Virus record (IMG/VR): IMGVR_UViG_3300035390_000009
Location: 1-64,000 of that record
DNA length: 64,000 nucleotides
Source: a virus
Strand: one strand, 5' to 3'
Below the pieces are notes generated by a model. That model worked only from the letters and a program-made list of their open reading frames with translations. It did not search any database and was not told the origin of the DNA. Numbering within the stretch: position 1 is the stretch's first letter; each line of letters opens with the position of its first letter. Below, in pieces: positions 584 through 18,093 of the stretch. The position numbers were made by a program, and so were the translations under genes.

Positions 584-1348
584 ATGATTTTAATTAGTGG
601 CCCTTGTGTAATTGAGAATAAACAAATATTGAATGATATAGCTGAAAACATTATTAAACATATTATTGACCATAATGAAATAGACTTTTATTTTAAAGCA
701 TCTTGTATTAAAGATAATAGAACCAACAACAATAATTTTAGGGGTGTTGGTTTTGAAAAAGGTATTAGATATCTACTTGATATTAAACAGCAGTATGGGG
801 TCAAGATAACAACTGATTTCCATACTGCTGATCAAGTTAAAGAATATGCTAAGTATGTAGATTTAATTCAAATTCCTGCATTCTTAGCAATGCAATCATC
901 TTTATTAGATGAAGTTGCTAAATTTAATATTCCAATTAATATAAAGAAACCACAGTTTTTGAATCCTCATAATATTAAAAACCCTGTGAATAAAATAAAA
1001 GACCAAAATAAAAATGCTATTGTGTATGCAACTGACAGAGGAACTAAATTTGGATATGATGAAGTAATATTTGATCCAAGACATATCCCTGCAATGAAAG
1101 AAACTGGTGTGTGTGATAAAATTATAGTTGATATAACACACCCACAAAATCATTCTAAAATGTATAATAGAGATTATGCTTATTCTTTAGGTATGGCATC
1201 TATTGCAGCAGGGGCTGATGGTTTATTTATGGAAACTCATATTGATCCTTCTAAAGCTTTATGTGATGGTGATTCTCAATTAACTATTCCAGATTTTGTA
1301 AATTATATAAATAAATTTATTGAACTAGATAAAATAATAAAATGTTAA
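584..1348 (+). CDS. kdsA: 3-deoxy-8-phosphooctulonate synthase (KDO-8-P synthase), metal-dependent type
   Basis: Condenses arabinose-5-phosphate with phosphoenolpyruvate, the first dedicated step to KDO. Start ATG 584 is chosen because GGAG lies 6 bases upstream; a TTG at 572 in the same frame lies in the hairpin arm. The 254-residue product is a little shorter than the usual 280. Family motifs are GPCVIE (5-10), FKAS (37-40), the PAF loop IQIPAFL (95-101), IKKPQFL (120-126), TDRGTKFGY (150-158), and DGLFMETHIDP (212-222). Cys8, His186, Glu217 and Asp228 occupy the four metal-ligand positions of the metal-dependent class (Asn replaces Cys in the metal-free class). It overlaps the next gene by 7 bp and opens the inserted cassette together with a CMP-KDO synthetase at 3998. 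Confidence 0.9.
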   Translation: MILISGPCVIENKQILNDIAENIIKHIIDHNEIDFYFKASCIKDNRTNNNNFRGVGFEKGIRYLLDIKQQYGVKITTDFHTADQVKEYAKYVDLIQIPAFLAMQSSLLDEVAKFNIPINIKKPQFLNPHNIKNPVNKIKDQNKNAIVYATDRGTKFGYDEVIFDPRHIPAMKETGVCDKIIVDITHPQNHSKMYNRDYAYSLGMASIAAGADGLFMETHIDPSKALCDGDSQLTIPDFVNYINKFIELDKIIKC

Positions 1349-2247
1349 ATACAAATGAAGTGAGAATAGAAACTTGCACTAAATGTAATTATTCTTGTAT
1401 ATTTTGTCCTCATTCAACTAAGTTTGAAAGAGAAAAAATATTAATGGATTATAATACATTTGAAGTAATTGTTAATAAAATAAAAGATGAATTACCTAAT
1501 ATCACTGATATTACAATTTCAGGATTTGGTGAGGCATTTTTAGATTTTAATATTATAAGTAAAATAAAATTATGTAGAACTCTTGGATATAAAGTTCATA
1601 TATTAACTAACGGTTCTTTATTAAATAAACATTATATCAATATGATTAATGAATACCAGGTAGATGACATTAGAATAAGTTTACATGCAGTTGAAGAAAA
1701 ACCTTATAGAAAAATAACGAAAAGTAAAGATTTAAAAATAGTTTTAGATAATATAGATAATATAATTAATAAAACTAATTTAAATCTTATATTAACTTTT
1801 GATATTGTAAAAGGTATCAATGAAGATCAAGTTGAAAAAGCCAAAGACAAATATAGTAATAGTGTTATAATTGAAGCATGGAAACCTCATAATTGGGTTA
1901 ATGCCTTTACATATAGAAAAGGCGATTCTGTAAAATCCACATGTGGGAGACCATGGAAGAGTCCATATCAAATTCAAGTTGATGGAACAGTTAATATGTG
2001 TTGTTTTGATTATAATGGTAAGTTGTTATTAGGAAATTTTTTAAATCAAACAATGAAGGAGATATTCAATGGACAAGAGTATTTAAATCTTAAAAAACAT
2101 CATGAAAACGGAACTTTAGATACAAGTTCATATATTTGTAAAAATTGTGATCAAAGAAAAGATCAATCTGATATAATTATATATAATAATAAGTTTAAAT
2201 CTAAAGATAGATTAAATAGAACATCTACTACTTATAAAAAAATATGA
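1342..2247 (+). CDS. Radical SAM/SPASM-type protein
   Basis: The CxxxCxxC cluster site is Cys15, Cys19, Cys22 (CNYSCIFC), followed by the SAM-binding stretch ISGFGEAFLD in place of the GGEP motif. The C-terminal part has CGRPW, then VDGTVNMCCFDYNGKLLLGN and a CKNCDQ end, the layout of a SPASM auxiliary Fe-S domain. Such enzymes modify peptides or sugars by radical chemistry; the substrate cannot be told. The first codon overlaps the end of kdsA, so the two are translationally coupled. It is one of seven radical SAM genes in the window. Confidence 0.88.
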   Translation: MLNTNEVRIETCTKCNYSCIFCPHSTKFEREKILMDYNTFEVIVNKIKDELPNITDITISGFGEAFLDFNIISKIKLCRTLGYKVHILTNGSLLNKHYINMINEYQVDDIRISLHAVEEKPYRKITKSKDLKIVLDNIDNIINKTNLNLILTFDIVKGINEDQVEKAKDKYSNSVIIEAWKPHNWVNAFTYRKGDSVKSTCGRPWKSPYQIQVDGTVNMCCFDYNGKLLLGNFLNQTMKEIFNGQEYLNLKKHHENGTLDTSSYICKNCDQRKDQSDIIIYNNKFKSKDRLNRTSTTYKKI

Positions 2248-2269
2248 AAAATATAATAAACAAATAGAA

Positions 2270-2666
2270 CTTTTTCTTATTAAAGCAATACAATATTCTA
2301 ATATTAATTTATTATTTACTAATCTTTATTTTTTTAAAGATAAAAAATTCATTTATTAATACATTTATATAATTATAAACAATGTTTCAAGTATTACAAA
2401 AACTATAACAAGGAATTATTAATTTTTGAAAAAATTATTTACGAGCATAGTTATTTAGATGATATTCTTCATATTTCTAATTTCCCATCTAAAAGATATA
2501 ATTGTTATATAAATAATATAGATTTAGAAAAAGCAAAAAAAAGGAATTACAAAGGAAATTGAATTAAAACAAGATTTTGAAATTTTAGAAAATGAATTAA
2601 AAGATGAAATGACCTTTTTAGGTTACACCTCAACAATTGAAATAAATAATATTATTAAGGAGATTT
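2270..2666 (+). pseudogene. Decayed copy of the following P-loop sulfotransferase-like gene
   Basis: No intact ORF. Reading across frames gives FEKIIYEHSYLDD, SKRYNCYINNIDLEKAKK and, after a frame change at a run of eight A, ELKQDFEILENELKDEMTFLGY. These align with FEKFTIEYKKIMKN, SPRYNYFLNYIDLEIMKQ and DDFKILEDKLKDEMNFLGY in the C-terminal third of the gene at 2667-3413. Even the end, IEI..IIKE with the same AAGGAG context, is shared. It is a tandem duplicate that has lost its N-terminal part and frame. Confidence 0.8.
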
Positions 2667-3413
2667 ATGGAGGTTGTAGCCCTGATACGTGGTAATATTC
2701 ATAGTGGAAAAACTATGATTACAAAAATATTAGAAAAAAATTATATTAATTGTATAATGCATAATCAATATAATTTTGTAAATAATTTTGATAATATGGA
2801 AATGATATTTTGGAATTTAAAAAGAATAGTTAAACAGAATAAATCAAATATAGAATTACAGGAATTTTTTTCTAATATATTAAACAATATATTTCTTAGG
2901 GGTGAGTTTAAACATAACAGAACTAAAACAATAGAACATAAAATAGATATAATTGAAAAATTTAATTTACATAAACATATAAGTTTGATTAATATATTTA
3001 TATTTAGAGATCCTAGAATAAGTTGGTTATTAAATAATGATTATAAAAAAGAGCAAATATATGATTTTATAATAATTTATAAAAATAAATTTAAAAGATA
3101 TATTAACAATCAACAACAATATACTTTAATTATCTTTGAAAAATTTACTATTGAATATAAAAAAATAATGAAAAATATTTTAAAAATTCATAATAAAAAA
3201 ACTATTATAGAATTACCATCACCAAGATATAATTATTTTTTAAATTATATAGATTTAGAAATAATGAAACAATGTATAATAACTAAAAAAGGATTAACTG
3301 ATGATTTTAAAATTTTAGAAGATAAATTAAAAGATGAAATGAATTTTTTAGGTTATAATTCACCAATTGAAATAAAAAATATTATTAAGGAGAGTTATGA
3401 AGTATTTAATTGA
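2667..3413 (+). CDS. P-loop protein, sulfotransferase-like
   Basis: 248 residues. The N-terminus has RGNIHSGKT (8-16), a Walker A-like or PAPS-binding loop, and near residue 110 IFIFRDPRISWLL, which resembles the 3'-phosphate-binding RDPR segment of sulfotransferases. The C-terminal third is Lys/Asn-rich and helical. ATG 2667 follows AAGGAG with a 5-base gap. A decayed tandem copy lies just upstream, and the 3' end overlaps the transaldolase gene by 17 bp. A sulfotransferase role fits the APS kinase and other sulfotransferases nearby, but a different P-loop kinase activity is not excluded. Confidence 0.55.
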   Translation: MEVVALIRGNIHSGKTMITKILEKNYINCIMHNQYNFVNNFDNMEMIFWNLKRIVKQNKSNIELQEFFSNILNNIFLRGEFKHNRTKTIEHKIDIIEKFNLHKHISLINIFIFRDPRISWLLNNDYKKEQIYDFIIIYKNKFKRYINNQQQYTLIIFEKFTIEYKKIMKNILKIHNKKTIIELPSPRYNYFLNYIDLEIMKQCIITKKGLTDDFKILEDKLKDEMNFLGYNSPIEIKNIIKESYEVFN

Positions 3414-3993
3414 TACTGCTGATCAAATTGAAATTTACAAATGGAAAAATATAGTAGTTGGGGCGACAAGTAATCCTTCAATATTAAGAAAATGTAATAT
3501 GACTGCTGAAAAATTTTATGAGAATAACAAAGATAATTTCGATAGCATATTCATACAAGTTCAAACACTTGATGAAGCAAGAAGTTTTAAAAATACTGCT
3601 AAAATTGTATTTAAGGCTCCTCTATTAATAACGAAAGATTTTAATGGTTGGGTATTATTAAAACAATTAAAAGATGCTGGGTTTAGAACTTGTGCTACTA
3701 TAACATATGATCTTACTCAATTTAATTATGCCTGCGAACTTGGTTGTAATTTTAGTATAGTATTGATTGCAAAAAATGAAAATAAATTCTTTCTTGATGA
3801 ATGTGTTAATCTAAAAGAAAGAAATAATTATAAAACAAAAATAATTGCGGCAAGTTTTAGATCCATAGATGATGTAAATGATGCTATAGATGGTGGTGCT
3901 GATTATGTAACTGTTCCCCCAAAATATATGGATGGACTATTTGCAAATGAAGCTGCTATTGTAGACTATAATAAATTTTATGGAATAGAATAA
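3397..3993 (+). CDS. Transaldolase / fructose-6-phosphate aldolase family protein
   Basis: 198 residues, the length of the short class of transaldolases (about 215). Motifs are YLIDTAD (3-9, with the conserved Asp6), GATSNPSIL (22-30), IVFKAPLL with Lys73 as the expected Schiff-base lysine, ATITYDLTQ (close to 105) and DYVTVPP near the end. The family moves dihydroxyacetone units between sugar phosphates. Between KDO synthesis genes, it may supply or rebalance pentose phosphate for arabinose-5-phosphate, or make another sugar precursor; this is inference. Short transaldolases are also common in phages as carbon-metabolism genes. Confidence 0.82.
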   Translation: MKYLIDTADQIEIYKWKNIVVGATSNPSILRKCNMTAEKFYENNKDNFDSIFIQVQTLDEARSFKNTAKIVFKAPLLITKDFNGWVLLKQLKDAGFRTCATITYDLTQFNYACELGCNFSIVLIAKNENKFFLDECVNLKERNNYKTKIIAASFRSIDDVNDAIDGGADYVTVPPKYMDGLFANEAAIVDYNKFYGIE

Positions 3994-3997
3994 AAAT

Positions 3998-4738
3998 ATG
4001 AAATCTGTAGCAATAATACCTGCAAGGGTAAAATCATCAAGATTCCCGAATAAAATTCTTCATAATTTTGATGGAAAAAGAATAATAGATAAAGTTATAA
4101 ATAATGTTAATAAATTAGATTTTGTTGATGATATAATTATTGCTACAGATGACATAATGTTAGGAAAAGAATTAAAATCAATACATAGTTGTGTTAGTGA
4201 TTATCATATAACTGATGCATGTTGTGGAACTCATAGAGTATTTAAATATTATGAGAAAAATCCAGGTTATGATTACTACATAAGTATTCCATCTGATGAA
4301 GTTGCTTTAAACCCAAAAGAAATAAATAAAACTATTTCAAATATTAAAATTGATTATAATGAAATAACATCTTTCTATACTAAATTTTATTGTAAAGAAG
4401 ATTTACATAGTTGTTTATCATGTAAAATAGTTACAACCGAATTAGATTATATGGTTTACAATTCAAGAACAATTGTACCTGTTAAAAAAGATGGTAGTAT
4501 ATTTAATCTTGACTATTATAAAAAACATGTAGGGATTTTTATTTTTCCAAAAGAAATTTTTGAAACATATGGAGAAAGTTTATGGAAACATACAACTGAT
4601 ATTGAATCTCTGGAACAAAATAGATTTCTTCAAAGAAAAGTTAATATAAAAATGTATGAAACAAATCATATTGGATTTGGGATAGATGTTAAATCCCAAA
4701 TTAAAAAGTTAGAGGAAAGAATAAAATGTCAAAAATAA
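3998..4738 (+). CDS. kdsB: 3-deoxy-manno-octulosonate cytidylyltransferase (CMP-KDO synthetase)
   Basis: 246 residues, full length for KdsB (about 250). The N-terminal IIPARVKSSRFPNKIL matches the nucleotide-binding signature IPAR.xSSR.PxK. IIIATDD, CGTHRVFKYY and YYISIPSDEVAL (usually VQGDEP) follow in the expected order. It activates KDO with CTP for transfer to lipid A or another acceptor. The QGDEP loop reads IPSDEV, so the acidic pair is kept but the loop is divergent. No KDO transferase (WaaA) is visible in the window, so either the host supplies it or a phage glycosyltransferase uses the CMP sugar. Confidence 0.87.
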   Translation: MKSVAIIPARVKSSRFPNKILHNFDGKRIIDKVINNVNKLDFVDDIIIATDDIMLGKELKSIHSCVSDYHITDACCGTHRVFKYYEKNPGYDYYISIPSDEVALNPKEINKTISNIKIDYNEITSFYTKFYCKEDLHSCLSCKIVTTELDYMVYNSRTIVPVKKDGSIFNLDYYKKHVGIFIFPKEIFETYGESLWKHTTDIESLEQNRFLQRKVNIKMYETNHIGFGIDVKSQIKKLEERIKCQK

Positions 4739-5526
4739 TCGGGTTACTTACTACAACTGATAGTGGTAAAAGTCTTTTACAAGATTATTTTAGAAAAAAT
4801 TTTAAAAATCAAATGTATGAAAGTACTAATCATGGTCCTGGCCAAATAACTGATTCTTTAAAAACCATAGATAAATCTAAACTAGAAGATAGAAATGTTG
4901 TATTAGATTTAATTAAAAAACATGGTTGTGATACTTTATTATTTGATTGGGTTAAAAAACAATTTAATAATAAATCAATGAAGAATATGTTTAAAGAACA
5001 CATTACAGATAAAAAAATGATTTTTGTTTTTGTTAGACCAATAGACTTTGATCATTATTGTGATCATGGAGTTTATGTCGCCAGAGATGTTAGACCGAGG
5101 TGGGCTGTTAGTCAACATAGAAAACTTGGAGTTGAAGGCTATGCCGGGATACTTCAAAATTTTTTTACAATGTATGATCAATTATCTGATAAATCAAAAG
5201 TGATGGAAATAATTTTTGAGGATTTGATTGAAAATCCAAAAGTTATATTAAATAAAATTATTGATAAATTTGGATTTATAAAAGAAAGAGAATTTGTAGA
5301 ATCAACTAAACAATATAATAAATGGTTAACAGAAATTGATTTAAAAAACATTAGAACATATGTTGAAGATGGTCAATTATTAAAACAAGAAGAACTGGAT
5401 TACTTATCAGAATTTTTTGCTGATTATAATAAAAAATTTGGTTATCCAGAACAAATGCTAATATCAGATATCTATCCAGAAACTTTAGTTGATGATATTA
5501 ATAATTATTTAAAAAGGAAATCTTAA
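4726..5526 (+). CDS. Sulfotransferase-like P-loop protein
   Basis: 266 residues. The start reads GLLTTTDSGKSLLQDYF, a divergent P-loop, near residue 105 FVFVRPIDFD and near 165 IIFEDLIENPKVILNKIIDKFGF, the typical sulfotransferase stretch (E-D-L..NP...L..I..FLG). It lacks the clean PxxGTT loop of the two sulfotransferases at 8681 and 10233. It overlaps kdsB by 13 bp and ends 2 bp before the S74 half gene. A sulfotransferase or related sugar/peptide modifying role is likely, with unknown acceptor. Confidence 0.6.
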   Translation: MSKIIGLLTTTDSGKSLLQDYFRKNFKNQMYESTNHGPGQITDSLKTIDKSKLEDRNVVLDLIKKHGCDTLLFDWVKKQFNNKSMKNMFKEHITDKKMIFVFVRPIDFDHYCDHGVYVARDVRPRWAVSQHRKLGVEGYAGILQNFFTMYDQLSDKSKVMEIIFEDLIENPKVILNKIIDKFGFIKEREFVESTKQYNKWLTEIDLKNIRTYVEDGQLLKQEELDYLSEFFADYNKKFGYPEQMLISDIYPETLVDDINNYLKRKS

Positions 5527-5528
5527 AT

Positions 5529-5798
5529 ATGTCTTTGAAAATTGTGAATGAATTGAAACCTGTCACCTTCAAATATAATGAACATATTAAAAATGATGAT
5601 GGTAAAACCCATATGGGATTTATAGCACAAGATTTGTTAGAGCAATTTGGCGATCAATATGCTATAGTGGTAGAAAATAAAGAAAATAAATATTTGATGA
5701 TTAGGCATAACGAATTGATTGCACCACTTGTTAAAGCGGTACAAGAACTATCATTACAAGTCGATAATTTACAAAAACAAATAAATACAAATAATTAG
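5529..5798 (+). CDS. Detached C-terminal part of an S74 intramolecular chaperone domain
   Basis: 89 residues beginning MSLKIVNELKPVTFKYN, then HMGFIAQDLLEQFG, a NELIAPLVKAVQEL stretch and a coiled-coil tail. This is the S74 chaperone without its first strand SDRRLK. Read directly after EYM at 519, it would restore one continuous domain, and both junctions share ATATGT. AAAGGAAAT upstream serves as ribosome binding site, so it may be made as a separate polypeptide and act in trans on the fibre at 1-519. An alternative is that it is a decayed leftover. Confidence 0.85.
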   Translation: MSLKIVNELKPVTFKYNEHIKNDDGKTHMGFIAQDLLEQFGDQYAIVVENKENKYLMIRHNELIAPLVKAVQELSLQVDNLQKQINTNN

Positions 5799-5808
5799 GA
5801 GATGACAA

Positions 5809-6723
5809 ATGAGTAAACATCTTTTTATCATTAATGATGACGGAAATGAATATCAAATTACAGGCGCTAGAATTGAGGTTGATACATTTGTAGTAGATAC
5901 ATCATTGTATTACGAAACCTCGGCAGAGGATTTCTATTATTATGTACAACAATTGCTTGAAGCTGGAGCAATTATTAAATATTCAAAAGAATTAACTTAT
6001 GCCTCAGGAATTATTAATTTTAATTCTGGTAGTATTATTTTAAAAGCTGTTATAGAAGGAGATGCTGGTAATGGAATTACAGTTACAATTACAAATCCAG
6101 AAGTAGCATCATCTGCTTTAGCAGTTAGCGTTACTGCTCATGATATTAATATCTCATTAGCTACTGATGAATCTTCTACTGTAATATCAACAATACAAGA
6201 AGTTTCAGATGCTATTAATACTAATGTTTCTGCTAATGTTTTATTATCAACAGTTGCTGATTCTGGGGGTTCCTTTATATCAAATGATGTATCTATAGTA
6301 TCTTTAACTGGTGGTGGAACTATTACTAATTTAGAACAAGATGATTTAATGATTACTAATATTGATAGTCTTGAAGCATATAAATCTAGATATAGAACTA
6401 TAGGAAAACATCTATTAAAACAATATTGTGATTTTACATTGCAATTTGATTTCTTTGAATTTTCTATTTTAAATAACAAATTAATAGATGCTGGTTATAT
6501 TATTACTGATATTAATAGGGAAGAAAAATATCTTGAAATCATTAATACTGGAGATAGTGTTTTAATTAGTAATTTAGAAACATATCTCGAAGTTAAAGAT
6601 AGGATTTCTATTCATACACATCACTATAACAATTATATTACTTATAAAGATAATGTTAATTTATGTTCTAGTGCAATTGAAGTTGATGCCGCATATTCTG
6701 TGTATTCTTCTCTATATCAATAA
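5809..6723 (+). CDS. Putative virion structural protein
   Basis: 304 residues, ATG preceded by TTAGGAGATGACAA. Residues about 70-175 contain IEGDAGNGITVTITNP, ISLATDESSTVISTIQEVSDAIN and a closing SLTGGG, the common phage sheath/fibre insert pattern with G-N-x-I-T-V and repeated AIN motifs. The flanking parts begin HLFIINDDGNEY and end with His/Tyr-rich segments. It lies between the split chaperone gene and the modification island, with visibly less A/T-biased codons than the island. The exact virion part is unknown. Confidence 0.55.
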   Translation: MSKHLFIINDDGNEYQITGARIEVDTFVVDTSLYYETSAEDFYYYVQQLLEAGAIIKYSKELTYASGIINFNSGSIILKAVIEGDAGNGITVTITNPEVASSALAVSVTAHDINISLATDESSTVISTIQEVSDAINTNVSANVLLSTVADSGGSFISNDVSIVSLTGGGTITNLEQDDLMITNIDSLEAYKSRYRTIGKHLLKQYCDFTLQFDFFEFSILNNKLIDAGYIITDINREEKYLEIINTGDSVLISNLETYLEVKDRISIHTHHYNNYITYKDNVNLCSSAIEVDAAYSVYSSLYQ

Positions 6724-6726
6724 ACA

Positions 6727-7620
6727 TTGAAAAAATATTTATTAATTGCTCATAATTATGAATATCTAAAAAGAGGCGCTCATCTTACTTCAATAAGATT
6801 AGCAAAACAATATCCTGAGTATCTAGATTATAAAATTGATCTAGATGCTCAGAATCTTGAAGAATTAAATGAACAATATAAAAGATTGATATTCATAACA
6901 CAAGTGCCTAGTTGTTATAATTTAAATTTAAAATTTAATCGCTTAAAAAATTTAAATTATATATTCATGTTAAGAGGTACCAGGAATCCGTTAATTTACA
7001 ATTCTAGTAATAATGGATTTCATTATTATAGATCTTATAAAAATATAAAATATTTTATTCCTTTCATTACAGATTTTCAAATTCCTAATGAAACTAAAAA
7101 AACATGTATTGGTTTTTATGTTCGTAGAAATATAACACCAGATTCATTAGCGTATACCAAAGACTTCTTAAATAATTTAAAATATCCAACTGATATATAT
7201 GTAATGGGGGATCCTACTCCAGAATTTGAAAAAATAAAAAATGTCAAAAGTTATACTCACACATATGATCAATTTAAATTTTTCTCTAATATTAGTCATT
7301 ATATTTATCCAACATCTATAGTACATAATGATCCGTTTCCAAATAGTGTGTTGGAGGCAGTTCAATGTAATAAACAAATTATATTTCCAGCTCTTCCTAA
7401 TAGAGTTCATAAAGATGGTATAGATGATATTAAGGATTGTATTAAATGGCATGAAACATATACCCCAGACAAAGAATTTGATAACTCAAAATGTATATTG
7501 ATTAGTTCTAATTTTAAAAAATTTTATTTAAAATTATTTGATAATAATTTTGAATATAGTTTTGATAGAACTAAATATAATAAATTTGATAAATGGATTG
7601 AAAAAGAAGGAGATATATAA
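6727..7620 (+). CDS. Glycosyltransferase-like protein (GT4 type)
   Basis: 297 residues from a TTG codon; there is no ATG before residue 80, and the conserved KKYLLIAHNYEYLKRG start supports the TTG although no good ribosome binding site is seen. Near residue 200, DPFPNSVLEAVQCNKQIIFP is the nucleotide-sugar binding signature of GT4 transferases (E.fp..vlEAma.g.pvi). The N-terminal Rossmann half looks short. It opens the run of tightly spaced island genes. Confidence 0.6.
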   Translation: MKKYLLIAHNYEYLKRGAHLTSIRLAKQYPEYLDYKIDLDAQNLEELNEQYKRLIFITQVPSCYNLNLKFNRLKNLNYIFMLRGTRNPLIYNSSNNGFHYYRSYKNIKYFIPFITDFQIPNETKKTCIGFYVRRNITPDSLAYTKDFLNNLKYPTDIYVMGDPTPEFEKIKNVKSYTHTYDQFKFFSNISHYIYPTSIVHNDPFPNSVLEAVQCNKQIIFPALPNRVHKDGIDDIKDCIKWHETYTPDKEFDNSKCILISSNFKKFYLKLFDNNFEYSFDRTKYNKFDKWIEKEGDI

Positions 7621-7622
7621 AA

Positions 7623-8603: not shown

Positions 8604-8680
8604 ACTCAATAATTTATTACAATATAAAAAATTATATAAATGGTTCCATTATAGATATTTAAAATAATAAGGAAACTAAT
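8600..8680 (+). pseudogene. Remnant of a copy of the 9436 glycosyltransferase-like gene
   Basis: The first 57 bases read MNSIIYYNIKNYINGSIID and match the start of the gene at 9436 almost base for base. Then a stop follows, and AAAATAATAAGGAAACTAAT equals the last bases of that gene before 10233. An internal deletion has joined the two ends. The next gene's ribosome binding site is kept. Confidence 0.85.
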
Positions 8681-9373: not shown

Positions 9374-9382
9374 AGGAAAGAT

Positions 9383-9439
9383 ATGAAAGTAATTTATTGT
9401 GGACCTTTAAAAAGTATTGATAATTATAAAATAAAATGA
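9383..9439 (+). pseudogene. Truncated start of a copy of the 10935 radical SAM gene
   Basis: MKVIYCGPLKSIDNYKIK and a stop. The same spacing, ribosome binding site and wording begin the radical SAM gene at 10935 (MKVVYCGPIKYVDNYEIQ). The rest was deleted up to the start of the 9436 gene, whose ATG overlaps this stop. Confidence 0.85.
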
Positions 9440-10925: not shown

Positions 10926-10934
10926 GAAAAAAAT

Positions 10935-11846
10935 ATGAAAGTAGTTTATTGTGGACCTATAAAATATGTTGACAATTATGAAATCCAATGGTCTTTAACA
11001 AATAGATGTAATTATAATTGTTCATATTGTGGCATTGTTACTAAAAATGAAAAATTTTCTTCATTAGAAAATATGAAAAAAAATTTAAATTTTTTATACT
11101 ATTTAAATAATAAGAAAGAAGTTAAGTTAACTTTATTTGGTGGGGAACCAACCCATCATCCAGAATTTTTAAATCTACTAAAAATTATTGAATTACAAAA
11201 TCTATCTATATTTACTAATTTATCTAAAGATAAAAATTTTTTAAAAAAAGTTTTAGATATAAAACCAACCATAAGAATTAAAACATCCTTCCATAAAGAA
11301 TATGCAAATCTCAATGATTATATAGATAAGATTAAATTTATCGCTGAGCATGGAAATGAAATTTATTTATGTTTATTATGTAAAGATAAAAATAAAGAAA
11401 CAATCGAAAATTATAATAAAGTTAAAAATGCAACCAAAATGTATACTAATGTAATAGTTGATGTTATTAGTATTCATCCTAATATGAACGAAGAAGTTGT
11501 TAAATGGGGGGATGAAGTTAATAGTGATAGATTTAAAATAAAATATGATAATGGAAATGAAAATGAAGTTACTCTATCTAATATAATATATAATAATTTA
11601 AATTGCTTTGGACTATTTAAATGTTATTGTGGAATTAATAATCTTTTTATAGACTATAACTTTGATGTTCATTATTGTCAAACTTATAGAAATCATCATA
11701 TAAAACCAATTTTTAATCTTATAAATGATAACTATAAAGATTATGAAAATATATTTTCTAATGCAATGTTATGCAAACTTGAAAAGTGTTATTGTGAGGG
11801 TTTTATAAAAAAAGAAAAAGTTTTTAATAGAATAAAAAAATTATGA
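10935..11846 (+). CDS. Radical SAM protein with SPASM-like C-terminus
   Basis: 303 residues. Cys25, Cys29, Cys32 (CNYNCSYC), LTLFGGEPTHHPEF as SAM motif, and a C-terminal region CFGLFKCYCGINNLFIDYNF with HYCQTYRN and CKLEKCYCEG, that is several cysteines for an auxiliary cluster. Strongly similar in order and wording to the 14144 gene (NLFID.N.DV..CQT.RN). GGAAAAAAAT precedes the start. Its C-terminal overlaps the deacetylase gene by 4 bp. Substrate unknown. Confidence 0.87.
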   Translation: MKVVYCGPIKYVDNYEIQWSLTNRCNYNCSYCGIVTKNEKFSSLENMKKNLNFLYYLNNKKEVKLTLFGGEPTHHPEFLNLLKIIELQNLSIFTNLSKDKNFLKKVLDIKPTIRIKTSFHKEYANLNDYIDKIKFIAEHGNEIYLCLLCKDKNKETIENYNKVKNATKMYTNVIVDVISIHPNMNEEVVKWGDEVNSDRFKIKYDNGNENEVTLSNIIYNNLNCFGLFKCYCGINNLFIDYNFDVHYCQTYRNHHIKPIFNLINDNYKDYENIFSNAMLCKLEKCYCEGFIKKEKVFNRIKKL

Positions 11847-12418
11847 AAACATTAATGTTACATGATATAAAACCAATATATTTAAATTATGATTTAAAAA
11901 ATTATGATTTGACTTTTGATGATGGTTTGTTTAGTCAGTTTTATTATTGGCCAATAATAAAAAAAATAAATACTAGTAAAATTTTTTTTATATGTTGTGA
12001 TTTAATATCATTAGAGAATAAAGTTAGACCCAATTTTAGAAATACTTTTATAGAATATCCAACATGTTTTCAATCTATGGATAAATACAAAAAGTTAAAT
12101 ATTAAATCAGATTATATGACTATTGATGAATTAAAAATATTAAGTAAAGATGTAATGATAGGAGCTCATAGTTTTAGTCATAAAAAAATTAATATGAATG
12201 ATAGTTTTTATAATATAAGTCAACAAATAAAACAAGATACTGAATTAATGTTAGAGTGGTTTAAAAAACATTTGAATCTTACCCCATTACATTACTGTTT
12301 TCCTTTTAATGAGAAACACTACTTACATGATTTATTATTACCATATTATGGGTTTAAACATTTTTACGGAAAAGAACGAATTGATATTGAATCTTTAGAT
12401 ATGGGAGAGTCTGAATGA
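11843..12418 (+). CDS. Polysaccharide deacetylase (NodB family)
   Basis: 191 residues. Motif 1 is LTFDDG (23-28) with catalytic and metal Asp26-Asp27, motif 2 is GAHSFSHKKI with His109 and His113, and motif 3-like CFPFNEKHYLHDLLLPYYGF follows. The order of all three NodB motifs is kept. It would remove N-acetyl or O-acyl groups from a sugar polymer, and deacetylated amino sugars are classical acceptors for N-sulfation, which fits neighbouring sulfotransferases. It has no signal peptide, so it would act in the cytoplasm on an intracellular intermediate. Confidence 0.82.
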   Translation: MKTLMLHDIKPIYLNYDLKNYDLTFDDGLFSQFYYWPIIKKINTSKIFFICCDLISLENKVRPNFRNTFIEYPTCFQSMDKYKKLNIKSDYMTIDELKILSKDVMIGAHSFSHKKINMNDSFYNISQQIKQDTELMLEWFKKHLNLTPLHYCFPFNEKHYLHDLLLPYYGFKHFYGKERIDIESLDMGESE

Positions 12419-13353
12419 AATTTATGAAAAAATATGATGTTTGTTTTATGCATCTTTTTACGTATTATATATGTGGAGATTTATTTCAAAGTTTTGAACA
12501 TTTTTATTTATCAAGAAAAAATAAAATTAATGCCTGTTTATTTTTATCCATACATGTAGATAAAGAAAGAATAGAGCAATGCTTCAAACAAAAATATAAT
12601 TTTGATGAATCAGAATTTGAGGAAATATTTTCCCATATTTATATTATTCCAATTAAAGAATTTATTAAAAAAAGAATGTATCAAACTTCTTTTAAAATAA
12701 TATGTTTTCCAGGTATACATCAATTATATCAATTATATACTGGAATTATTATACAACATCAAAAAGCTGTTGCCTTCGCTTGTATGCCTGTAGATGAAAG
12801 TAGGACAATATTTAATCTAGAAGTTTTTCAAGATTATAGAATTTATGGAGATACATTTTTAAACAATAAAACCTATAATTATGTAAGAAAATTATTACTA
12901 GATAAATATAAAAAACCAGAAAGTAATACAGAAGATACTGCTTTAATATATATTAAAAATTTTGTTAAAAATCATACTATTGAAAATACCATTAGGATGA
13001 TGAAAGAATATAAATTTAAAAAATATTTAATATGTGTAGATAAACCTTTCTACCCTACTTTTTCAAAATTAAAAAATGCTCAAGTAGAAGTTATTACTTT
13101 ACCAATTGATGATATCTTTTCTAAATTTTCAACTTATATATATTCTTTAATTAAAGATAATACTGATAAAGTTATTGATTGTTCTTCTAGATTTTTAATT
13201 GAATGTAAATATTTTAATAAAGATATTATTTTTGATGGAGATATTAAAGATAAAGGATTATACTTCAGGAAACAAGATTTAGAAAATGATATAGAATGTT
13301 TAAATTTAAAAGATAATGATTATTTTATTACTTATTTAAAGGATAATTTATGA
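12415..13353 (+). CDS. Unrecognised island protein, weakly glycosyltransferase-like
   Basis: 312 residues. Overlaps the deacetylase stop by ATGA. The final 100 residues (SSRFLIECKYFNKDIIFDGD..KGLYFRKQDL) parallel the C-terminus of the 9436 protein (HPRLLLECAYYNKTILYYNE..YYRYHDL), so the two share a domain. No catalytic motif is certain. Alternating strands and the shared E-C-x-Y-x-N-K element make a nucleotide-sugar binding fold plausible. Confidence 0.35.
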   Translation: MKFMKKYDVCFMHLFTYYICGDLFQSFEHFYLSRKNKINACLFLSIHVDKERIEQCFKQKYNFDESEFEEIFSHIYIIPIKEFIKKRMYQTSFKIICFPGIHQLYQLYTGIIIQHQKAVAFACMPVDESRTIFNLEVFQDYRIYGDTFLNNKTYNYVRKLLLDKYKKPESNTEDTALIYIKNFVKNHTIENTIRMMKEYKFKKYLICVDKPFYPTFSKLKNAQVEVITLPIDDIFSKFSTYIYSLIKDNTDKVIDCSSRFLIECKYFNKDIIFDGDIKDKGLYFRKQDLENDIECLNLKDNDYFITYLKDNL

Positions 13354-14147
13354 TAACATTTATTGATCATTTAGATGATTATTTATGTGGAACTAATATT
13401 ACATTATTAGATTGTTATAAAAATTTATTAAAACTAAATATAGATTGCGAATTAAAAATACATTATACCAATTTAACAGTTGCCTCTAAATATACAAAAC
13501 TCTTTAAATTAGTATCCTTTATAAAACAAATATCTAAAGAAAATATGATAGTTAAAGATGATATTATAATAACAACCCTATATACTTTAAAACAAAAATC
13601 TTACAAAATTAAATGTGATAAATTAATAATATTAGATAGTTTAGATTTTTTAATGTGTCATAATCAAAACATTTTAGATGATTTATATTATGAAATAAGC
13701 AAAACATCTAATGAAATAATTGTGTTAGCGAATCCATTCAATTTCCAATTTATTAAATATGATGTTATTGAGTATTATCATAAATTTGATTTTGATAGAA
13801 TTAAAAAATTAGCAACCACACGTGAGGTAGGCCCCGAATATATTCAAAATAGAGAACAAATTATAAATCCCTTTATGTATAAAAAATTTAATTATGAAAG
13901 ATATTTTAAAGTTGGGGATGGGTATTATGAAAACATATGTAAGATAATATATGAGTTTAATTATTTAAACAAAATAATTTCTTATTCTCCAAAAAATAAA
14001 ACTTGTGATGATGGTTTAACTTATTATTTAAAATTATTTGATATTGATGATAATAAAGAGCAATTAATTAAAATAGAAAAAGAATTAATAATTGATAAGT
14101 TAGGTTTTTTTAAAAATGATAATCTTATAGAGCTGGTGAATTTATGA
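13350..14147 (+). CDS. Unrecognised island protein
   Basis: 265 residues, ATGA-overlapping with both neighbours. It begins ITFIDHLDDYLCGTNITLLDCYKNLLKLNI, a strand-loop-helix start like that of the 9436 and 12415 proteins (each opens with a segment ending in a Gly/Ser/Asp-rich turn and a Phe/Leu helix). It probably belongs to the same loosely related glycosyltransferase-like group. No motif proves it. Confidence 0.3.
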   Translation: MITFIDHLDDYLCGTNITLLDCYKNLLKLNIDCELKIHYTNLTVASKYTKLFKLVSFIKQISKENMIVKDDIIITTLYTLKQKSYKIKCDKLIILDSLDFLMCHNQNILDDLYYEISKTSNEIIVLANPFNFQFIKYDVIEYYHKFDFDRIKKLATTREVGPEYIQNREQIINPFMYKKFNYERYFKVGDGYYENICKIIYEFNYLNKIISYSPKNKTCDDGLTYYLKLFDIDDNKEQLIKIEKELIIDKLGFFKNDNLIELVNL

Positions 14148-15064
14148 AAATTTTAGAATTAGGATTAAAAGAATATATTCCGGATGAGATATTTTTTAGT
14201 CATTGGGCAGTAACTAATAATTGTAATTATAAATGTGATTATTGTGTTTTATCAAAATGTGAAAAATATAGTAATGAAGAAACCTGTAATAAAATAATAG
14301 AATTTTATAATTATATAAATAAAACTAAAAAATTAATTTTAGTTTTGTTTGGTGGAGAACCAACCATACATCCTTTATTTTTAGATATTTTAAATAAACT
14401 AAATGCAGCCCCTAAAATTTTTACTAATCTTAGTAAAAATATATCTTTTTTAGAAAATATTGTTAATATAAATAATAATGTTGAAATAATAACATCTTAT
14501 CATCATAGAATAACTAATATAAATAATTTTATAGATAAGATAAAATTCTTAGTAGAAAATGTTAAATTTGTTAGAATAAAAATTATGTATGAATTAGAAT
14601 TTGCTAAAGAAATTGAAAATATATTTTATGAAGTTAAAGAATTAGATAAAGTATATGACAATTGTTTGACTACCCTTGACATGGTTTATAAACCAAATCA
14701 AAATATTACTACTGATGAATTAAATAATTTTTTATTATTACAAACCGATAAACAATATTATGTTAAATATAGATTAAATAATAAAATAATAGAAGAAGAT
14801 ATATCATATAATCAAATTCGAGCTTTGGGTAATACTTCTTTTAAATATTATAGATGTATGAGTGGGAGAAAAAATATTTTCGTTGACTTTAATGGAGATG
14901 TATTCTTTTGTCAAACCATGAGAAACATGAAAAGAAAGCCAATTTTTAATTTAATGATAGACGATTTTAAAAATCATTTAAATATTTTTAAAAGTGACAT
15001 TATATGTTTTGAAGATGATTGTTGTTCTGAGGTATCAGTACCTAAATATTGGACAAGAAAGTAA
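14144..15064 (+). CDS. Radical SAM protein, paralogue of 10935
   Basis: 306 residues. Cys27, Cys31, Cys34 (CNYKCDYC), LVLFGGEPTIHPLF, and a C-terminal YRCMSGRKNIFVDFNGDVFFC, with CQTMRNMKRKPIFNLMIDDF matching CQTYRNHHIKPIFNLINDNY of the 10935 protein. A final CFEDDCCSE supplies more cysteines. Two copies of one enzyme type suggests two related substrates. Confidence 0.87.
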   Translation: MKILELGLKEYIPDEIFFSHWAVTNNCNYKCDYCVLSKCEKYSNEETCNKIIEFYNYINKTKKLILVLFGGEPTIHPLFLDILNKLNAAPKIFTNLSKNISFLENIVNINNNVEIITSYHHRITNINNFIDKIKFLVENVKFVRIKIMYELEFAKEIENIFYEVKELDKVYDNCLTTLDMVYKPNQNITTDELNNFLLLQTDKQYYVKYRLNNKIIEEDISYNQIRALGNTSFKYYRCMSGRKNIFVDFNGDVFFCQTMRNMKRKPIFNLMIDDFKNHLNIFKSDIICFEDDCCSEVSVPKYWTRK

Positions 15065-15876
15065 TGGAAAAAATTTATGTAGAGATTAGTGGTATATGTA
15101 ATTTGAATTGTATTTTTTGTGGTTATAAATATAGACCTCTTAAAGGTATTATGGATTTTGATTTATTTAAAAAATGTATTAATCAAATTGTAATTTCTGG
15201 AATTAAAGATATTAGATTAACTCCAATGGCTGGAGAAATATTTATGGACCCAAATTGGAAAGAAAAACTTGATTATATAGAATCTATTAAAGAAATTGAA
15301 AGTTATGAATTTTTTACTAATTTTACTGTTATAAATGATATAGAATATTTATCTACATTGAAAAAATTAAATAGTATTACTATAAGTATATACGGAAATA
15401 ATTTAGATTCATTTTTAGAATTGACTAATAGTAAAAAAATATATTATGATCAATTAATAAAAAATTTAAGAATATTAAAAGATATAAAAATCAAAAATTT
15501 AAAAATAGTTATTAAATCTAAGTTAGATTATTTTGATAATTATTTAAAGGGTGAATTATTTCAAATTTTATATAATTTCAAAGGTAATATAGTACAATAT
15601 AAAGAACTAGATAATTTTAATGGATTATCAAATAATTTGAATTTTGATAATTTAAAAACTATAAACAATATTAATTGTAATGTTTTAGAAACAAAAAATA
15701 TTATATTGTGGAATGGTGATTTTAATTTATGTGGGTGTAGAGATATATTTCAAAAATCTACAATCGGTAATATCAAAAATACTCCCTTAAAAGAATTATT
15801 AGAAAGCAATGATTATGAAATAATGAAACAAAATAAATTAATAATATGCAAAGATTGTAGTGGGATATACTCATGA
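15064..15876 (+). CDS. Radical SAM/SPASM protein
   Basis: 270 residues from ATG 15064, which overlaps the upstream stop (TAATG); an in-frame TTG 15 bases earlier is less likely. Cys12, Cys16, Cys19 (CNLNCIFC), LTPMAGEIFMDP in place of GGEP, and a C-terminal CGCRDIFQ, IGNIKNTPLKELLES and CKDCSG, the typical SPASM wording (G(N)..... L..i). Similar in architecture to the 1342 protein rather than to the 10935 pair. Confidence 0.86.
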   Translation: MEKIYVEISGICNLNCIFCGYKYRPLKGIMDFDLFKKCINQIVISGIKDIRLTPMAGEIFMDPNWKEKLDYIESIKEIESYEFFTNFTVINDIEYLSTLKKLNSITISIYGNNLDSFLELTNSKKIYYDQLIKNLRILKDIKIKNLKIVIKSKLDYFDNYLKGELFQILYNFKGNIVQYKELDNFNGLSNNLNFDNLKTINNINCNVLETKNIILWNGDFNLCGCRDIFQKSTIGNIKNTPLKELLESNDYEIMKQNKLIICKDCSGIYS

Positions 15877-16706
15877 ATAAAAGAATAACATTATCTCTAT
15901 TAAACACATGTAATGAAAAATGTTTTTATTGTGATATACCAGAAGCAACTAATTTTAAAAAATTTGTATACAATGAAAATATTTTTAGATTAATTAAAAA
16001 ATTTGAATCCATATCTTTTAGTGGTGGAGAAATAGGATTATTAGATGAGGAAGATTTTATTTTTTTATTTGATTATTTTTCTGACAATAAGATAACAGTT
16101 TGTACTAATGGTTTGTTTTTTGAAAAAGGTTTTTATGATCTATTTCATAATAAAATCGACTCCATTGTTTATCATATATTAGAAGAAAATAAAATTATAG
16201 ATATCAATGATCCAATGATAGATAGAGATATTATTATACATAAGAAAAATATAGAAAATGTGTATAATATTATTAGTGACAACCCAGGTTTAAATTTTTA
16301 TTTAAAATTAGCTCATTTAAGAACTCCAGATAAATCATTTATTATAGATGATTATGATACATTAAATAAATTTTCAAATCTAAAAAATATAAAAAATTAT
16401 GAAATGATAAAAGAGTTTTCTAATATGGATAATAATTTTTATAATAATATATTAAAGTTTTGTAATAGATACCCATATTCATCTTTAATAGATTTAGTGG
16501 ATTATAAAATTAAACATTGTTGTACTAAACATATTAATAATCCAGAAAAAATATTAAATGAAGAAAATATTGAACTCCTATTAAATGATAAATTATTTAA
16601 AAACGTTAGTTTAAAATATTGTGATAATTGTAATTTTGTACTATCTATTAAACAAGATTTATTAGATAAAATGTTTTCTATTTTAAAGGATAAAAAGAAT
16701 GTATGA
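15873..16706 (+). CDS. Radical SAM protein with C-terminal cysteines
   Basis: 277 residues, ATGA overlap with the previous gene. Cys13, Cys17, Cys20 (CNEKCFYC), ISFSGGEIGLL, TVCTNGLFF, and a C-terminal KHCCTKH with CDNCNF. It lacks some of the TIM-barrel signature beyond the third strand, so it may be divergent. GTG-free, ATG start with good spacing. Substrate unknown. Confidence 0.8.
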   Translation: MNKRITLSLLNTCNEKCFYCDIPEATNFKKFVYNENIFRLIKKFESISFSGGEIGLLDEEDFIFLFDYFSDNKITVCTNGLFFEKGFYDLFHNKIDSIVYHILEENKIIDINDPMIDRDIIIHKKNIENVYNIISDNPGLNFYLKLAHLRTPDKSFIIDDYDTLNKFSNLKNIKNYEMIKEFSNMDNNFYNNILKFCNRYPYSSLIDLVDYKIKHCCTKHINNPEKILNEENIELLLNDKLFKNVSLKYCDNCNFVLSIKQDLLDKMFSILKDKKNV

Positions 16707-18093
16707 TAAAATAATGTTTATATCAGTTAACAATGGCACTATAAGTACTGTAAGACATGGGGGAACGTATTATATTAAACAACATTTAAAAAATAATGGT
16801 ATTGAAAGTTCATGTGTAGATTATTTCTATTCTATGGCAAATAGATTCAAAGATAAAAATTATACAACATACGTAGCTGAGATGGCTGATATGCCTAGTT
16901 TTGTTAAACTTCTAACTAACTATAAAAAAGGAAAAGATAATTTATTAGATGGGTTAGATGAATTAACCGGGATACAAGAAGAAATTATTAGTCAAATAAA
17001 TAAGAATTTTAAAAAAATAAAAATTACTAATAAATCTATAGTAGGATTTTCAATTAATTATTTAAACTTTTTTGTATGTTCTTATTATGCTTTATTAATT
17101 AAAAAAGAATACCCCGACATAACAATTGTTTTTGGAGGGTATCAAATGACATTAAGTGAAAAGTCTAGAAAATTTGTCATTGGTACTAAAATAGCAGATT
17201 ATGTTGTTACAGGTGATGGGTGCACACCAATGTTAGATATTATAAATGGTAAGTGTTTACAACCAGAAATTCATGGAGAGTTTCTTGATGATTGTCCATG
17301 GCCAGAATATTCTAAATTTAATATTAGATTATCTAGTAATACAGTATCATTATATACTTCAATAGGATGTCCAAATAATTGTAGTTTTTGTGCTAGTAAA
17401 AGAAAATATAAACTATATGATTTAAATAAACTTAAAATATACTTAGATAAAATGCATAAGCTCGGTATAAAGAAAATAGAATTTTGTGATGATAATTTAA
17501 ATGCTACACTTAAAAGAGGCCATGATGTCTCAACATTAATGGAAAATTATAAGTTACCCAAAGGATGGAATTTTTTTGGGCATGTAACTAATATTGATAC
17601 TGATTTGGCAAATCATTTAAAATATTCTGGTTGTTGTAGTATATTTTTAGGAACAGAAGGATTCACTAATACTGTTACTAAATTAATGCACAAAAATCAA
17701 ACTGTAGAGCAATCATTAAATGCAATTGACCTAGTAGCTAGTAGGAAAATTGTAGTTGGGTCAGGTTTAATAATTGGAATGCCTGGCGATACAGAAGAAA
17801 GTGTAAATTATCTTGTTAAAATGTGTGAAAACTTAAAAAATAAATATGGGGAATTTTATAACATAATTCCAACAATTTATAAATGTTACCCTGGATCTGA
17901 AATATATAATTACCCAGAAAGATTTGGAATAACATTAAGTTATTGGGATAAAATTTATGCTGATGAACTTCCTGAAGTTGCAGATTTAATTTTATCTATA
18001 CCAAAAACATTTAATGTAGATAAACTTAGTAGAGAATATGCAATTAAAATTTTAAATATGATAAGAAAAAGATGGCCAACTAAAGGAATTTAA
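16699..18093 (+). CDS. Radical SAM protein with N-terminal cobalamin-binding-like domain
   Basis: 464 residues. Residues about 1-190 have the Rossmann-like layout of B12-binding radical SAM proteins (VGFSINYLNF, VFGGYQMT, ADYVVTGDG), but the DxHxxG histidine motif is not seen. The radical SAM core has Cys224, Cys228, Cys231 (CPNNCSFC), IEFCDDNL, IFLGTEGFTN and IIGMPGDTEES, the standard series of this class. Such enzymes methylate or rearrange unactivated carbons. It closes the island. Confidence 0.88.
   Translation: MYDKIMFISVNNGTISTVRHGGTYYIKQHLKNNGIESSCVDYFYSMANRFKDKNYTTYVAEMADMPSFVKLLTNYKKGKDNLLDGLDELTGIQEEIISQINKNFKKIKITNKSIVGFSINYLNFFVCSYYALLIKKEYPDITIVFGGYQMTLSEKSRKFVIGTKIADYVVTGDGCTPMLDIINGKCLQPEIHGEFLDDCPWPEYSKFNIRLSSNTVSLYTSIGCPNNCSFCASKRKYKLYDLNKLKIYLDKMHKLGIKKIEFCDDNLNATLKRGHDVSTLMENYKLPKGWNFFGHVTNIDTDLANHLKYSGCCSIFLGTEGFTNTVTKLMHKNQTVEQSLNAIDLVASRKIVVGSGLIIGMPGDTEESVNYLVKMCENLKNKYGEFYNIIPTIYKCYPGSEIYNYPERFGITLSYWDKIYADELPEVADLILSIPKTFNVDKLSREYAIKILNMIRKRWPTKGI

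Follow-up and report, generated by a model that had tools for sequence, protein, structure and literature searches.

The island analysed here is probably the variable downstream wing of a phage module in which three radical SAM (rSAM) enzymes, R00, R01 and R02, carry out RiPP-like maturation of the tail-fibre tip. The module is widespread and apparently undescribed. The overall result suggests that in many phages the host-contacting tip is remodelled chemically and perhaps glycosylated. The window, which means the whole stretch of 64,000 nucleotides that was analysed, comes from a 79-kb IMG/VR virus record whose start falls within the Cys-repeat gene (1–519). None of R00, R01 and R02 was found on the window's record. 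Judging from relatives, the trio would lie upstream of the window's 5' edge, and the core of the module is expected just off the record, with the three enzymes beside a short fibre-tip gene. The preliminary description overlooked this core, the Cys-repeat fibre tip and the trio at or beyond the 5' edge of the record. The tip is represented in the window by the following features.

1–519, + strand: predicted tail-fibre tip protein with Cys repeats, truncated at the 5' end by the record start, ending ...CTCNCAYSDRRLKTEIEYM
226–480, + strand: array of C-x-C-x-C-N-Y units with a period of 7–8 residues, read directly from the sequence
481–516, + strand: start (12 residues) of a split Peptidase_S74 chaperone domain, assigned from unsplit homologues and the same split elsewhere
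5529–5798, + strand: second part of the split S74 chaperone, covering profile positions 16–52 of 58 (PF13884, 2.9e-9)

The tip protein would end in tandem C-T-C-(N/D)-C-N-Y repeats, often capped by the S74 folding chaperone. The repeat protein of the window reads (C-T-C-N/Q-C-N-Y)n and then enters the S74 tail-fibre chaperone domain, which in unsplit homologues starts directly after the last repeat. PF13884 was found in 7 of 16 tip members, the others being split or finishing at the array. The split point of the window is the same in other phages, and a remainder of the 5529–5798 type adjoins the Cys-repeat gene in relatives. Stop-codon readthrough or frameshifting at the split was considered; split genes are likelier because most relatives encode the second half as an ORF of its own that lies in a different frame (in frame only in G030/L100). 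The link to fibres proposed in the preliminary description is strongly supported, and more directly than could be seen there. The tip proteins are 160–530 aa long, and their arrays are near-identical across phages with divergent N-termini. Among 269 heptad units from 32 distinct homologues, position 2 is Thr in 72%, position 4 is Asn or Asp in 90% and position 6 is Asn or Asp in 95%; the heptad contains no Cys-X3-Asp motif. AlphaFold2 modelled the array of the Cys-repeat protein as disordered, with a pLDDT of about 30.

Trio and repeat protein are found together in phages of very different kinds, most often in an operon arrangement. Between 3 and 16 rSAM genes were present in 44 of the 45 IMG/VR records with the Cys-repeat protein and in none of the 34 chance-match records of the comparison set. 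In 27 regions a tip homologue follows the rSAM trio directly on the 3' side; among the 27 fetched regions whose tip gene is intact, R00 and R01 adjoin it without exception and R02 does so in 25, often at 0–20 bp. The distance from the upstream rSAM gene to the tip gene was about 30 bp or less in 28 of 64 measured loci and mostly about 350–530 bp otherwise. A reverse search with R00 alone, blind to the repeat, returned a Cys-dense ORF in 69 of 77 loci, and several of the loci lacking one are contig ends. Two fragments deviate: G012 (43.8 kb) has repeats and no rSAM gene, and R00 is absent from G081. The repeat type also goes with the enzyme set, since R02 accompanies 33 of 35 distinct heptad tips and 1 of 18 other tips. 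Fisher-type associations of this kind carry no correction for shared ancestry. In the cultured Campylobacter phage CPt10 the genes are unlinked and occur once each, R00 as gp023 (7e-117), R01 as gp141 (3e-96) and R02 as gp102 (9e-91), and the tip is gp145, adjoining the tail-fibre attachment gene. Trio and tip gene together show the RiPP arrangement of a ribosomal substrate beside its maturase.

PapB was the best NCBIfam match in all 10 trio members tested (best 5.7e-43), at no more than 147 bits against an equivalog cut-off of 340 bits. In the PDB, R00 (3.5e-42) and R01 (1.9e-37) both matched CteB (5WGG) best. The rSAM core of the trio enzymes lies near the N-terminus. R00 has an invariant SPASM pattern, CX2CX5CX3C...C, with TIGR04085 above cut-off; R01 has a near-canonical and likewise invariant SPASM Cys set; R02 lacks a full SPASM, so that two of the three pass as SPASM maturases. 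Ten conserved small neighbours were searched for an RRE and gave no PqqD-type match. By homology over their full length, R00 and R01 are related to peptide maturases that form thioethers; the best match of R02 is likewise PapB. Thioether acceptors in ranthipeptides are Thr, Asn and Asp (PMC8326336), and PapB tolerates Cys-Xn-Asp with n from 0 to 6 (PMC9413430). The trio likely acts on the repeat, and it could plausibly form Cys-to-Thr/Asn/Asp thioether cross-links, because the positions not taken by Cys are filled with these residues, all of them known acceptors. Cross-linked in this way, the repeat would become a rigid rod that withstands extracellular conditions, under which free thiols would be oxidised.

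All seven rSAM genes of the preliminary description are retained, each with CX3CX2C and PF04055 above the curated cut-off. The E-values of 6.7e-17 to 4.1e-7 mean that these matches are not due to chance. One site had been given at 15064; the gene is real, and its ORF starts at 15049.

1342–2247, + strand: radical SAM with SPASM domain (PF04055 6.7e-17, PF13186 2.4e-10)
7623–8603, + strand: radical SAM, family R39 (PF04055 3.8e-7)
10935–11846, + strand: radical SAM, family R05 (PF04055 5.6e-9)
14144–15064, + strand: radical SAM, family R05 (PF04055 4.1e-7)
15049–15876, + strand: radical SAM with SPASM (PF04055 1.1e-13, PF13186 3.8e-8)
15873–16706, + strand: radical SAM, family R42 (PF04055 2.4e-7)
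16699–18093, + strand: B12-class radical SAM, PhpK-like (PF04055 1.1e-15; TIGR04479 1.5e-33, below cut-off)

An eighth rSAM gene lies at 74 kb of the virus record. SPASM exceeded the Pfam cut-off only in 1342 and 15049, the others having extra Cys. The best NCBIfam match of 16699 was PhpK-like, with the B12 domain below the Pfam cut-off; direct search of viral contigs found no relatives of this enzyme, and weak homologues occur in loci L003 and L004. In tblastn against 50,697 phage records, 10935 gave no match, 16699 a single weak fragment and 1342 distant matches only. Therefore, the window's own enzymes are fast-evolving. Best matches of the accessory rSAMs were mixed.

The island itself is real, but the range of 1342–18093 first assigned to it was too small. 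KdsA (572), an aldolase (3397), a KdsB-like gene (3998) and an APS kinase (19629) are also members, all of them missed in the earlier gene list, as was the Cys-repeat/S74 gene. Overlapping genes had been noted, and from 9436 to 18093 the genes are indeed tightly packed, with overlaps in most. The other genes of the wing are given below.

572–1348, + strand: KdsA, Kdo-8-phosphate synthase (NF003543 above cut-off; PDB 1FWN, E 2.4e-52)
2667–3413, + strand: P-loop protein, possibly sulfotransferase-like (P-loop by eye; no Pfam or PHROG match)
3397–3993, + strand: member of the fructose-6-phosphate aldolase (FSA)/transaldolase family (PF00923 9.5e-15)
3998–4738, + strand: KdsB-like CMP-Kdo synthetase (PF02348 3.6e-22; best NCBIfam match KdsB, below cut-off)
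4726–5526, + strand: P-loop protein resembling sulfotransferases by eye only (searches of Pfam, PHROG and PDB gave no match)
5809–6723, + strand: protein of the family following the fibre-tip gene in most relatives (relatives' gene order)
6727–7620, + strand: glycosyltransferase-like protein (homologue at the same place in L004, 7e-57; no Pfam match)
8681–9373, + strand: putative sulfotransferase 1 (weak Pfam match, E 0.024; motifs by eye)
9436–10236, + strand: GT-B-like protein, family F09, phrog_14526 (predicted model; homologues in 11 other loci)
10233–10925, + strand: putative sulfotransferase 2 (65% identical to 8681; motifs by eye)
11843–12418, + strand: NodB/CE4-type deacetylase (PF01522 E 0.002, below cut-off; TFDDG and HSxxH conserved)
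12415–13353, + strand: GT-B-like protein, family F03 (homologues from 17 other loci fall in its cluster; aligns with 9436)
13350–14147, + strand: uncharacterised protein (no Pfam or PHROG match)
19629–20021, + strand: APS kinase (PAPS supply) with shortened C-terminus (PF01583 8.8e-22; PDB 8A8H 4.8e-15, residues 2–98)

For the Kdo pathway, KdsA scored above its cut-off, and KdsB was the best match of the second enzyme, below cut-off. The two sulfotransferases had been called clear, which is overstated: 8681 reached Pfam at E 0.024 only, with no PDB match, and 10233 had no Pfam match. Both keep, by eye, GPAKNGT[TS]SFFKMLSxHPQ and FILRxFxDxxxS, segments of the kind expected in PAPS-binding loops. 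The NodB deacetylase at 11843 keeps TFDDG and HSxxH in three homologues, although its Pfam score is below the cut-off. The predicted model of 9436 has a pLDDT of 92.8, and GT-B enzymes top its Foldseek ranking weakly (best E only 0.014); a profile search of the PDB with this family gave no match. Its relatives have the Cys-repeat gene in common, which was the route to the module. GT-like families F03/F09 or the GT2 family F12 are present in most tip regions. The donor-making genes (KdsA/KdsB-like and APS kinase) are consistent with a decorated glycan. With less certainty than for the trio, the wing of seven more rSAMs and GT-like, NodB, sulfotransferase-like and Kdo genes may further modify or glycosylate the tip, with the APS kinase feeding the sulfotransferase-like genes. 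Decoration by the wing would vary between phages and serve as a host-recognition or shielding surface. There is about an even chance that the full proposal holds, a dedicated RiPP-like line in many tailed phages that makes a thioether-stapled Cys-repeat rod, variably decorated with sugars, sulfate and rSAM changes, as a new class of virion PTM for host recognition.

The assignment of the island to a phage was correct. A host–phage assembly chimaera is ruled out because head and tail genes of phage type lie on the window's record and the same type of island recurs, with its architecture repeated, in dozens of independent virus contigs. A complete cluster in a bacterial chromosome had been named as a finding that would speak against the earlier reading, and this was followed up in part. 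When 84,980 species genomes of bacteria and archaea were scanned for the motif, a method that misses variant repeats, the Cys-repeat/rSAM module turned up in only four phage-like MAG contigs, and a bacterial origin of the module was rejected on this basis.

Remodelling of the host surface by a phage LPS/O-antigen or capsule pathway against superinfection, with the fibre genes belonging to the same hypervariable host-recognition region, is an unlikely account of the whole, although it may be correct for the wing alone. The KdsA/KdsB-like, APS kinase, GT-like and NodB genes of the window would suit it, as would the UDP-glucose dehydrogenase, GT2, DegT aminotransferase, epimerase, PIG-L and transketolase-like genes of related islands, a typical surface-sugar set; similar pelagimyophage islands are interpreted as O-chain modification (PMC7029224). 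However, it leaves unexplained that the trio accompanies the Cys-repeat tip also where the genes are not linked, that the trio resembles peptide maturases and that the repeat type is paired with R02. Binding of metal by the Cys repeats, whether iron, zinc or FeS clusters, as a cysteine counterpart of iron-binding HxH tips is rather improbable; the rSAMs would then act in metal loading or elsewhere. C-x-C repeats do look like metallothionein-like ligands, C-x-x-H motifs occur in many tip-protein N-termini, and T4 gp37 is known to have HxH iron sites, which have been proposed for further phages as well (PMC11705849). Nevertheless, metal loading is not a role of rSAM maturases, three PapB/CteB-like enzymes would not be needed for metal binding, and thiolate clusters are prone to oxidation outside cells.

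The S74 tail-fibre chaperone is fused or adjacent in many cases, the gene sits beside tail-fibre genes, and no exporter or leader peptidase was found adjoining the repeat gene. These observations make it quite improbable that the repeat proteins belong to the phage's cargo and not to the virion, as a genuine secreted RiPP with an antimicrobial or signalling role, even though a core-like Cys array adjoins RiPP-type maturases and tandem precursor-like paralogues occur in 3–4 copies in L095 and L093. A metabolic aid for low-oxygen infection, as proposed for CP220/CPt10 (PMC2853527), would agree with the often anaerobic nature of rSAM enzymes. It is very improbable here, with the trio bound to one virion-type gene in phages of many samples and matching no housekeeping rSAM equivalog above cut-off.

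RiPP-like maturation of the fibre tip would explain, in a concrete way that can be tested, why about a dozen radical SAM enzymes occur in some phages, a question that has stood since 2010. If true, RiPP-type radical chemistry reaches beyond secreted peptides to viral structural proteins, and many natural enzyme–substrate pairs for stapling tandem repeats become available. The reading of phage host recognition would also change, because the fibre tip would differ from its gene sequence. The parts are already present in cultured phages.

PapB/freyrasin and CteB/SCIFF resemble the phage module as the best NCBIfam (PapB, for the trio) and PDB (CteB, for R00 and R01) matches, in having a Cys-rich substrate next door and in the Thr, Asn or Asp beside each Cys of the phage repeat. 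On the other hand, the phage substrate is a fibre-tip protein rather than a short precursor, there are three phage-borne maturases rather than one, their scores are far below the equivalog cut-offs, and no RRE or export/protease genes were seen at the phage loci. QhpD also provides an rSAM/SPASM cross-linking of a structural protein and not of a secreted peptide, making Cys-Asp/Glu thioethers inside a quinohemoprotein subunit (PMC8326336). It is among the NCBIfam matches of the trio, weaker than PapB, and differs in substrate and organism. To our knowledge, mycobacteriophage virion glycosylation involves neither rSAM enzymes nor a Cys-repeat substrate. Its likeness lies in self-encoded GT genes beside virion genes that decorate the particle (Freeman 2023, as cited in PMC12619734). 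HxH iron-binding tips such as T4 gp37 likewise repeat a motif resembling metal ligands at the distal end of the fibre (PMC11705849), with His in place of Cys and no dedicated enzymes.

The phage origin and the fibre link of the preliminary description stand, but its view that such a gene set was unknown in phages is not supported. Campylobacter phages with 11–12 rSAM genes had been described in 2010 (PMC2853527), and rSAM cassettes together with glycosyltransferases were reported in 2020 from host-recognition islands of pelagimyophages (PMC7029224). The pelagimyophage cluster is likewise a variable island beside tail fibres; it was read as host O-chain modification, and a Cys-repeat tip is not reported in the available part of PMC7029224. 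For CP220/CPt10, the authors proposed a role of the rSAMs in metabolism or DNA protection (PMC2853527) and, in the text covered, did not tie them to the repeat protein. CP220, CPt10 and IBB_35 (Firehammervirus) differ from the module in that their trio is dispersed, and they share with it the trio itself, the Cys-repeat protein, which is gene 3-9 in IBB_35, and, as seen in CPt10, the NodB, PIG-L and epimerase genes.

The virus record holding the window comprises 79,155 bases, of which the window is bases 1-64,000. The preliminary description had claimed seven radical SAM (rSAM) genes in it, and all seven passed the PF04055 cut-off. An eighth rSAM gene lies outside the window, at 74 kb of the same record. 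The genes at 8681 and 10233, previously called clear sulfotransferases, are kept as putative ones on their motifs, and the putative NodB deacetylase at 11843 is based on conserved catalytic motifs. The following genes had been overlooked.

Overlooked genes (coordinates or start in the window)
1-519, Cys-repeat gene
572, KdsA
3397, FSA/transaldolase-family aldolase
3998, KdsB-like gene
19629, APS kinase

The Cys-repeat gene is cut by the 5' edge of the record, and its visible sequence begins inside the gene. Its product carries an array of C-x-C-x-C-x-Y units near its end and then SDRRLKTEIEYM, the start of a Peptidase_S74 (S74) domain. S74 chaperones serve the folding of tail fibres and spikes at the C-terminus, from which they are often cleaved. 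Since S74 begins immediately after the last Cys repeat, the array would be the distal end, or tip, of the fibre. In several phages S74 is split at one shared residue (after SDxRLKxxIxY), and the second half is an ORF with its own start. The two halves in the window are separated by a 5-kb kds/rSAM/P-loop cassette.

Split S74 domains
window, 481-519 and the remainder as a separate ORF, 5529-5798
loci L006, L098, L100, L101, L136, L186 and L188

Relatives were reached by a search with the glycosyltransferase (GT)-like protein 9436 as query, which found similar islands in four virus contigs. Common among them were fibre-tip, 5809-like (the family following the tip gene), GT-like 6727-like, 9436-like and NodB genes together with arrays of other rSAMs. 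The tip gene of L006 has nearly the same terminal Cys repeats as the window, plus the split S74. In an architecture survey of 26 fetched regions and the loci found earlier, three rSAM families recurred around the tip gene.

Core trio of rSAM families
R00, about 370 aa
R01, about 375 aa
R02, about 285 aa

All 27 regions whose tip gene is intact contain R00 and R01, and 25 of them contain R02. The gap from the end of the upstream rSAM to the tip gene was within about 30 bp in 28 of 64 measured loci. A reverse search using the R00 profile alone, without knowledge of the repeats, gave 77 loci, 69 of them with a Cys-dense ORF; in control loci 5 of 793 ORFs were Cys-dense. A DNA pattern encoding C-T-C-N-C-N-Y was also scanned across IMG/VR. 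It gave 80 stretches, about half inside a true repeat protein and the others single chance matches; the reversed pattern had no match in 38 records. Between 3 and 16 rSAM genes were found in 41 of 42 repeat-bearing records and in all three added later. They were absent from all 34 chance-match records, which are mostly shorter contigs, although dozens would be expected there, by rough estimate, at the density of repeat-bearing records. The association between the Cys-repeat tip and rSAM enzymes is strong. Its sole exception is G012 (L019), where a Cys-repeat protein occurs without an rSAM in 43.8 kb.

The tip designs seen were CTCNCNY, CPCNCNF, CICNSDCxCN... and CHSNCHSD. Of 35 distinct cases of the heptad design, 33 occur with R02, as against 1 of 18 cases of other designs (kinship ignored). 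Three of these 18 are loci from Campylobacter, where R02 is not linked and the Cys-dense ORF encodes another protein. Divergent tips (CHSNCHSD; CICNSDCxCN) occur with divergent R00/R01 in L182 (12564-13067), L188-L201 and L204-L207, and some such loci lie in jumbo-phage contigs of 278-315 kb. In some phages the tip gene is repeated in tandem, the three or four copies sharing the array but differing at the N-terminus. The array is near-identical across phages whose N-termini diverge, as expected of an enzyme-selected core.

In the searched parts of Campylobacter phage CPt10, one clear R00 (gp023), R01 (gp141) and R02 (gp102) are scattered over the genome, and a single repeat protein (gp145) adjoins the RNA ligase/tail-fibre attachment gene. 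That they occur together without being linked speaks for a functional tie. Of 50,697 phage records searched, those with R00 are 15 from Campylobacter phages plus a distant gut contig. When 84,980 species genomes of bacteria and archaea were scanned with a sequence pattern, 13 stretches matched. Four of them fall in a repeat protein, and all four proteins lie on phage-like MAG contigs carrying trio relatives. By this sequence scan the module is phage-specific. Two earlier papers term Campylobacter phage rSAMs highly unusual and attribute them to metabolism (PMC2853527) or offer DNA protection as a possible role (PMC3322345). A second Cys-rich repeat type, CxxCxxC-dense, near an rSAM and annotated antifreeze-like in Campylobacter phages, is seen in CPt10 gp169 (L128 8920-9345) and L171-L173; it is possibly another substrate.

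The genes downstream (3') of the tip gene encode conserved proteins of small size, GT-like proteins (F03/F09) or a GT2 (F12), and a varying set of rSAMs. Window genes (rSAMs R39, R05 twice and R42; GT-B-like F03 and F09; NodB) belong to this wing or are neighbours like it. GC is 19-25% in the island (2001-18000) versus 26-36% in most of the remaining record. The predicted structure of 9436 is confident, and its top fold matches, weak ones, are GT-B type glycosyltransferases. KdsA and the KdsB-like enzyme would supply CMP-Kdo, and APS kinase PAPS; GT-like and putative sulfotransferase-like wing genes could consume them. Related islands encode UDP-glucose dehydrogenase, GT2, DegT, epimerase and PIG-L. 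The product of the wing may sit on the fibre or on the host; pelagimyophage islands are interpreted as O-chain change in one study (PMC7029224). The island first described is confirmed and enlarged, and its interpretation as a decoration pathway for fibres or the host surface is supported in part.

Other genes noticed in the record
18587-19627, papain-family (C1) cysteine protease, adjoined by an M15 peptidase at 20018
20985-21863, response-regulator receiver domain protein with more, unassigned sequence behind the domain
23798-25876, tail-fibre-like protein with BclA C-terminal and collagen-repeat matches
56462-62821, 2119-aa ORF, probably a virion protein
62860-64000, continuing in L002 1-6599, giant repetitive protein (repeats like LxLGxxExLSSxIxIxS), probably a virion protein
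L002 11354-14398, minus strand, helicase-like protein with C-terminal tandem AEKLAKxNGGKLPxxxWLxKNGY repeats

Ten trio members were tested against NCBIfam. PapB, a thioether-forming ranthipeptide maturase, was the best match in all ten, far under the equivalog cut-off, and the match spans nearly the whole length of R00 and R01. The best PDB match was CteB, likewise from a ranthipeptide system (3.5e-42 for R00 and 1.9e-37 for R01), and the Cys set of R00 agrees with the SPASM signature. Best matches of six accessory rSAMs were spread over mixed families. Thioether-type chemistry of the trio on the repeats is putative. In the journal literature covered, mostly open-access, no such system of rSAM enzymes and a tail-fibre tip was found. 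PapB tolerates Cys-Xn-Asp with n of 0-6 (PMC9413430), and the acceptor residues known in ranthipeptides are Asp, Thr and Asn (PMC8326336). The same residues dominate the non-Cys positions of the phage repeats, which are, in order, Thr (72%), Asn/Asp (90%) and Asn/Asp (95%).
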